Source of the DNA: an uncultured Bacteroidota bacterium
GTDB lineage: Bacteria > Bacteroidota > Bacteroidia > Chitinophagales > Chitinophagaceae
DNA: 41,132 nt
Direction of reading: 5' to 3'
NCBI GenBank assembly: GCA_903862505.1
Contig: CAIOYQ010000055.1
Span: 1 to 41,132, forward strand
The position numbers and the translations under genes were made by a program. Numbering within the stretch: the stretch's first letter is position 1; each line of letters begins with the position of its first letter. This document shows positions 27,373-28,889 of this stretch, piece after piece. A model generated the notes under the pieces. That model made no database searches and was not told the origin of the DNA. It worked only from the letters and a program-made list of their open reading frames with translations.

Positions 27373-27849
27373 TTAAATGGTGATATTATTCACTTTAAAT
27401 TTCATAGTGCCATTGGGTGTTTGCACTTCGGCAATCTCCCCTATTTTTTTTCCAATTAATCCTTTACCAATTGGAGATGAGGCTGAAATTTTTCCCGCTT
27501 TTAAATCGGCTTCTTTTTCCCCTACCAATTGATAAGTAACCGTTTTTTTATTCGCCTCATTGGTAATGGTCACCTTTGTTAAAATAGTCACTTTACTGGT
27601 GTCAATCGTTTTGGTATCTACAATTTTAGCATTGGAAATAGCCACTTCCAATTGTTTGATTTTTGACTCCAACATTCCCTGCGCTTCTTTCGCAGCGTCA
27701 TACTCGGCATTTTCTTTCAAATCCCCTTTTTCTCTTGCTTCCCCAATAGCTCTTGAAGCTGCTGGACGATCTACTGATTTTAATTTTTGTAGTTCTTCAC
27801 GCATCTTATCAAAAGTGTCCTGTGTTACATATACATTAGTCTCGCTCAT
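27373..27849 (-). CDS. greA: Transcription elongation factor GreA
   Basis: MSETNVYVTQDTFDKMREELQKLK; AREKGDLKENAEYDAAKEAQGMLE; 158 aa. The track start (27912) would read through the leader hairpin. Confidence 0.95.
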   Translation of the reverse strand: MSETNVYVTQDTFDKMREELQKLKSVDRPAASRAIGEAREKGDLKENAEYDAAKEAQGMLESKIKQLEVAISNAKIVDTKTIDTSKVTILTKVTITNEANKKTVTYQLVGEKEADLKAGKISASSPIGKGLIGKKIGEIAEVQTPNGTMKFKVNNITI

Positions 27850-27866
27850 ATCCTTCGTTTTAGATA

Positions 27867-27902
27867 AAAAAAATACAACGCCACATAGGATATGTAGCGT
27901 TG
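27867..27902 (-). terminator. Intrinsic terminator-like hairpin in the predicted greA leader
   Basis: Minus-strand RNA CAACGCUACAU-AUCCU-AUGUGGCGUUG-UA-UUUUUUUU: 11-bp stem with one G-U pair, then a U8 tract. Confidence 0.8.
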
Positions 27903-27909
27903 CAGTAAA

Positions 27910-27917
27910 CAAAGATA
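27910..27917 (-). promoter_or_regulatory. Candidate greA -7 element TATCTTTG
   Basis: Exact TAnnTTTG on the minus strand, 7 nt upstream of the hairpin. Confidence 0.55.
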
Positions 27918-27959
27918 TTATATTCGAATGATATTAAAGTAAAATTGAATGAAGAAGAC

Positions 27960-28889
27960 TTAAATGATGGCCAATTTTTCCAATACGATCCTGGCCATTT
28001 TATAATAGGCTTCATGGCTATAACCCGCTATATGAGGGGTAATAATTGCATTGGAGAAGGCTAATATGGCTTCCAATTGCTGCTTTTCGGAAGGACTATA
28101 ATTAGCCAATTGCTCATTTTCCAGCACATCCAGGCCCACCCCTCTAACCCATTGATTTTGAAGGGCTTTTAAAACCGCCCCCGTCTCCGTAACCGAACCT
28201 CGGCAAGTACTAATAAAGTAAGGCTGCTGTTTACAGGCCCCAAAAAAAGTCTCATTGGCATAATGAAGGGTAAGCGCTGTCAAGGGCAAATGAAGGCTAA
28301 TGATATGCGCTTCTTGCTGAATTTGCTCCAAACTAGCTGCTTTTATTTGATCGGTTTCAAAGCCCTTTTTATAAATATCATGGGCTAATATTTTCACGTC
28401 AAACCCTTTCAATAATTTAGCAAAAGCAGTTCCTGTATTTCCCAATCCAATAATGCCCACTGTTTTCCCATTTAACTCATCCGCTCTATTCGCATCCCTT
28501 ATCCATTGGCCATTTTTTATTTCTCCATAACTACTATGAATTTTATTCATCAAGCTCAAAACCAATCCAAGGGTATGCTCTCCAACTGTGGTGCAATTTC
28601 CTTCTGGACTACTTACACATTTTATTCCTTTCGAAATGGCATATTCCTCATCAATTAATTCCATTCCACTACCAAGCCTTCCAATCCATTTTAAATGAGC
28701 CGCTTTTTCTAAAATCGATTTGTCTATTTTTAAACGCGTAGTGACAATTAATCCAGTGGCATTCACAACCATATCAGACAATGCCTCGTAACTTATTGCA
28801 GGCGCATGCACCACTTCAAACCCTTTAGCGCGTAAGGTATCCACTAAAAATGGATGTACCGGTGCCGTTATTAATACAATAGATGCCAT
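27960..28889 (-). CDS. D-2-hydroxyacid dehydrogenase family protein
   Basis: [49 protein letters not shown] at 28889 preferred over 28928, which overlaps rsmA. Confidence 0.88.

Follow-up and report, generated by a model that had tools for sequence, protein, structure and literature searches.

A promoter-proximal terminator hairpin in the greA leader of Chitinophagaceae as a probable GraL-type attenuator

The greA locus and its leader

The window analysed here is a whole contig (C55; 41,132 nucleotides) of a 2.0-Mb assembly, in 248 contigs and 92% complete, from an uncultured member of the Bacteroidota whose closest relatives, judged by similarity of the GreA protein, are Sediminibacterium-like Chitinophagaceae. 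On its minus strand, a 2-hydroxyacid dehydrogenase gene, greA and a gene for a HIT-family nucleotide-binding protein follow one another in the same direction (Table 1). GreA retains the catalytic acidic residues D43 and E46, which correspond to D41 and E44 of Escherichia coli. The HIT gene lies directly downstream of greA and is likely to be co-transcribed with it; the pair is kept in 71 of 78 Chitinophagaceae loci and 26 of 27 loci from other Bacteroidia, which suggests a conserved operon governed by the same attenuator.

Table 1. Genes and leader features at the greA locus of the window
Feature	Position	Strand	Description	Basis
2-hydroxyacid dehydrogenase gene	28928-27960	minus	upstream of greA, co-directional, stop at 27960	
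-7 box, greA promoter	27917-27910	minus	TATCTTTG, exact TAnnTTTG	sequence read and conservation
Predicted transcription start zone	27907-27903	minus	best guess 27905	inferred from the Flavobacterium psychrophilum -7 box position
Terminator hairpin	27904-27874	minus	14 bp, UCC loop, TGCAACGCTACATA-TCC-TATGTGGCGTTGTA	
Hairpin arms	27902-27897 and 27881-27876	minus	CAACGC and GCGTTG; covarying, variable inner stem between	
U8 tract (T8)	27873-27866	minus	where the ~40-nt leader RNA is predicted to end	
Spacer, U tract to greA ATG	27865-27850	minus	16 nt, without a -7 box	
greA	27849-27373	minus	158 aa	NCBIfam TIGR01462, E=2e-53
HIT-family nucleotide-binding protein gene	27363-26974	minus	directly downstream of greA	

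The leader has exactly the minus-strand layout that a sequence-only reading of this DNA had described: TATCTTTG, GTTTACTG, the hairpin CAACGCTACAT-ATCCT-ATGTGGCGTTG, TA, T8, a spacer and the ATG at 27849. The hairpin itself, which that reading drew with 11 bp, is present but extends further, to 14 bp with a UCC loop. The stretch between box and hairpin reads TTTAC, and the hairpin lies about 7 nt past the -7 box. When folded, the predicted 40-nt RNA (27905-27866) reaches -18.7 kcal/mol (z=-7.6), a value equalled by none of 200 shuffles. A scan of 16 kb placed the hairpin first among terminator-like sites. The whole window has 21 such sites by strict criteria, and none of the other 20 has an exact -7 box 2-25 nt upstream. 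A sigma-70 consensus scan was uninformative here as promoter evidence (53 matches found, 63 expected). The CAACGC-N3-24-GCGTTG hairpin has one further copy in the 2.0-Mb assembly; that copy sits within a long open reading frame (ORF) and is probably a chance match rather than a second element.

Two other features of the leader were considered and set aside. One is base pairing between the -7 region and the sequence around the start codon; it would involve a box that is untranscribed from the predicted start, and no clear conservation of such pairing was seen. The other, an upstream reading frame beginning with the TG or ATG before CAACGC, is likewise not upheld, since that triplet is not constant and stem pairing accounts for the T-G/T-A bases. 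The greA frame stays open upstream across the hairpin to a TTG at 27912 (27912-27850, minus strand), an arrangement that could lead automatic annotation to extend the N terminus wrongly. At the contig end, within positions 1-130 of the window, the palindrome GCCTCACCAAAGTGAGGC occurs twice, 87 bp apart and with small differences after the palindrome, beside copies of TTTTATAAAAC.

Conservation in Chitinophagaceae and association with greA

Protein similarity identified 80 Chitinophagaceae greA loci, of which 79, the window included, have upstream sequence; the hairpin leader is present in all 79. Its elements follow a common order: TAnnTTTG, a short gap, CAACGC, a variable stem, GCGTTG, 1-3 nt and a run of T6-T10, with 16-40 nt from the U tract to the ATG in most leaders. 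An exact -7 box stands 5-13 nt before the hairpin in 68 of 78 loci, compared with 2.1% in dinucleotide shuffles, and in 48 of the 78 the gap between box and stem measures 7-8 nt; terminator and exact box occur together in 67 of 79 leaders. The AACG...GCGTT bases are invariant in 69 hairpins. Across the stem, 97% of cells are paired and 76 two-sided changes are found, against 24 in shuffles (0 of 500 reach 76) and only 0-13 in structures slid along the alignment as a control; the count comes from the model-fitted alignment A2, whose fit favours the structure, and the same changes are visible by eye in the unfitted alignment A1. Between stem and T run lies a near-constant TA or TTA/CTA (L087-L088, L015 and other Chitinophagaceae leaders), and the E. 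coli greA terminator likewise has TA ahead of T7.

The element is specifically tied to greA. A covariance model built from hairpin and U tract alone, with neither promoter nor greA, was used to search 150 genomes from the order. It gave 23 matches with E<0.004, of which 22 sit directly upstream of greA, the sole exception being L104. These matches extend to a sister family in which GreA is about 51-54% identical and the hairpin reads AACGCTTCAG...CTGAAGCGTT. None of the weaker matches examined (L108-L114) is at greA.

The gene upstream is far less constant. In the window, the dehydrogenase gene ends 55 nt before the hairpin, and dehydrogenase transcripts may also end there. The same gene precedes greA in 51 of 74 Chitinophagaceae loci, in contrast to 1 of 27 loci from other Bacteroidia. 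The hairpin is kept where the upstream gene is divergent and encodes an ABC ATPase (L015, L021), an Rce1-like protease (L020), a TonB plug protein (L038), a GDSL hydrolase (L050) or one of several mutually similar unknown proteins (L028, L030, L047); its presence is thus not limited to loci with a co-directional upstream gene, as it would be for a 3' terminator only. The stretch from U tract to ATG lacks an exact -7 box for all 74 strict greA-leader terminators of Chitinophagaceae and for 63 of 65 in other Bacteroidia. A promoter there is therefore unlikely, and the simplest reading is that greA transcription passes through the terminator.

Distribution across Bacteroidota

The wider survey covered 19 other families within the order, 62 further families of Bacteroidia outside it and, beyond the class, 18 families from elsewhere in the phylum, with a strict terminator defined as a stem of at least 7 bp plus at least 6 T in 8. 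By this definition a greA-leader terminator is found in 33 of 44 genomes of other Chitinophagales, 65 of 85 Bacteroidia outside the order and 19 of 28 from other classes; with a medium definition the counts rise to 35 of 44, 72 of 85 and 26 of 28. As the surveyed sequences share ancestry, these counts are not independent events, and the family-level counts of 15/19 (order), 48/62 (class) and 13/18 (phylum) for the strict terminator are the safer measure. Terminator and exact -7 box together precede greA in 21 of 44 other Chitinophagales and 41 of 86 other Bacteroidia. Controls were 278 ORFs with automatically called starts, from 20 stretches of 20 kb in 20 genomes of the class; any strict leader terminator occurs before 17 of them, and the combination with an exact -7 box before 1 of 278 and in 0.1% of shuffles. 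Conservation of promoter plus hairpin in relatives, by which the sequence-only reading had proposed to judge its case, is thus near-universal in Chitinophagaceae and widespread in Bacteroidota. The coincidental -7 match that it also considered does not agree with a box held at near-fixed distance, or with the near-complete lack of another box between hairpin and ATG.

The hairpin sequences are clade-specific. AACG...CGTT arms occur in 18 of 44 leaders from other Chitinophagales, in 10 of 85 from other Bacteroidia and in none of 172 control terminators, and many Chitinophagales carry hairpins of the AACGTTTC/GAAACGTT types. A second, very common type, GAGTCCCG-loop-CGGGATTC, is spread across many other families of Bacteroidia (for example L131, L138, L147 and L154) and could be modelled as an RNA family of its own. 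Under the definitions used, about 15-25% of the greA leaders in Bacteroidia show no terminator, which means that greA does not strictly require the element. The strict terminator is absent from all three genomes sampled from one family of the same order (f19; L144/L233, L235 and L244), and a 0.5-Mb genome (G174, family f47; L164) has no recognisable element. Overall, the promoter-terminator arrangement looks old and vertically inherited within Bacteroidota.

Proposed mechanism and relation to known greA leaders

In the E. coli greA leader, about two-thirds of transcripts terminate, yielding GraL, and GreA raises termination; this response requires catalytically active GreA, and in hairpins with swapped arms it is lost in log phase while termination persists (PMC6829880). 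On the E. coli leader, GreA had its effect in vivo only and apparently needs the help of an extra factor, with Nus factors considered excluded; GraL also acts in trans. As with GraL, which is represented by RF01769, the greA leader of the window has a single intrinsic terminator, a hairpin that comes shortly after the promoter and runs into a U tract. The terminator lies in the same orientation as greA, in its 5' leader and near the start codon, with a predicted promoter upstream of it and none between it and the ATG. The short RNAs are of similar size (37-59 nt for GraL, about 40 nt predicted for the window), and the catalytic residues of GreA are conserved between the two. They differ in that the hairpin begins about 19 nt after the start in GraL and 3-4 nt after the predicted start here, in that the window promoter is of the Bacteroidetes -7 type, and in that the hairpins have no obvious sequence similarity; GreA dependence is known for GraL, whereas for the window element it is proposed by analogy. 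The RF01769 model (Enterobacteria greA leader) does not match the window even at E<=10, while the E. coli control scores 127.5 bits. Searches of the window, L003 and 27 other greA leaders against Rfam returned only sub-threshold chance matches, including MicC and BTnc231, the latter dismissed at 25.9 bits against a gathering score of 80.4, with mainly the generic terminator matched.

Naville and Gautheret (2010) described greA/rnk leaders with a 5' terminator in many species of Proteobacteria, bacilli and Clostridia (PMC2965389), and the element resembles these in placing a 5' terminator ahead of greA repeatedly across species. Those leaders were reported with a clear antiterminator (PMC2965389), whereas the arms of the window leader are left unpaired when the terminator cannot form; Bacteroidetes are not mentioned in the main text of that paper. 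Transcriptomes of Bacteroides and Flavobacterium come from the same phylum, with the same TAnnTTTG promoters and known leader-derived RNAs (PMC7366714, PMC10994844, PMC9723704), and the main texts of these three papers do not discuss greA. In the literature searched, no publication on the greA leaders of Bacteroidota came up. The element would work like GraL and the Naville leaders, yet it is a separate family, unlisted in Rfam, with a start-proximal hairpin.

The comparison across relatives strongly favours an attenuator, and the element is very probably a promoter-proximal intrinsic terminator that attenuates greA by way of a GraL-type leader. Layout, conservation, covariation, the link to greA and independence of the upstream gene were read from sequence; the start site, termination itself and control by GreA we infer. 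In Flavobacterium psychrophilum, TAnnTTTG spans -12 to -5 (PMC9723704), which puts +1 five nt after the G, near 27905; the predicted start falls 3-4 nt before the stem in most relatives. RNA polymerase would initiate near 27905, its first ~30 nt of transcript would fold into the hairpin with U8 next, and a share of complexes, probably the majority, would release the ~40-nt RNA, while those reading through would produce the greA-HIT mRNA. With the hairpin forbidden, the median minimum free energy of 74 leaders is -5.7 kcal/mol instead of -24.0 kcal/mol, and this terminator-forbidden fold leaves the arms unpaired in the window as well as in the five relatives shown, so that a classical antiterminator is unlikely according to the folding models. 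With no competing antiterminator fold, readthrough would have to depend on polymerase state, on a bound factor or on the choice of start site.

The controller we favour is GreA itself, which would raise termination at its own leader and so provide negative feedback; by analogy with E. coli, we put the chance of such control at about even. The identity of the arms, besides their pairing, would then matter, and the invariant Chitinophagaceae arms fit an arm-sequence requirement as in E. coli. In its broadest form, the proposal is that most of Bacteroidota regulates greA through an inherited, sequence-specific hairpin at the 5' end of the leader that needs no antiterminator, RNA polymerase reading the GreA concentration within the first ~40 nt; this would be an old, general GreA sensor that predates the radiation of the phylum or is independent of GraL. 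We advance this tentatively, at somewhat below an even chance.

An attenuator that does not answer to GreA is another reading: NusA/NusG, NTP or ppGpp levels, or the choice of start site could govern readthrough instead, and transcription beginning a few nt further downstream would shorten the 5' arm so that the terminator no longer works. The predicted start lies just 3-4 nt before the stem, so small shifts would matter, no cis antiterminator was found, and E. coli seems to require an extra factor; nevertheless, the element is tied to greA and not to a general set of genes, which favours control linked to the product, and the exclusion of Nus factors in E. coli also speaks against them. On balance this is unlikely, though it deserves serious weight. 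It is improbable that the short RNA itself acts in trans as a small RNA, with readthrough supplying greA expression and the conserved arms serving target pairing or protein binding. The invariant CAACGC/GCGTTG arms do exceed what pairing needs, and E. coli GraL has its activity in trans, but here the arms are locked in a stable stem and the loop is variable, a poor arrangement for target pairing, and arm sequences differ among families while the layout stays. Hairpins at 5' ends can protect mRNA, and from the predicted start this one would occupy the very 5' end of the greA mRNA; a stabiliser or translation-control element without transcription termination is nonetheless very improbable, because T7-T9 follows the stem directly in nearly all loci, which stabilising does not need, and because stem plus U is the canonical terminator design and recurs with different stems. 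That the hairpin does no more than end transcripts of the co-directional dehydrogenase gene close upstream, with a coincidental box, was the simpler alternative of the sequence-only reading; despite the frequency of that gene in the family, we reject it as a full explanation and give it almost no credence, as the hairpin is retained behind divergent genes and in families with other upstream genes, the box precedes it at near-fixed spacing, and greA would be left practically without a promoter.

The preferred reading, a GraL-type attenuator in the greA leader, points to an RNA family missing from Rfam. Detailed knowledge of greA autoregulation by way of GraL is confined to E. coli, and the start-proximal terminator design found here leaves no room for classical antitermination. 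It suggests that promoter-proximal termination is a recurrent way to control Gre factors, and the phylum-wide greA leaders, with arms invariant in Chitinophagaceae and different elsewhere, form a natural panel for finding the sequences that matter.
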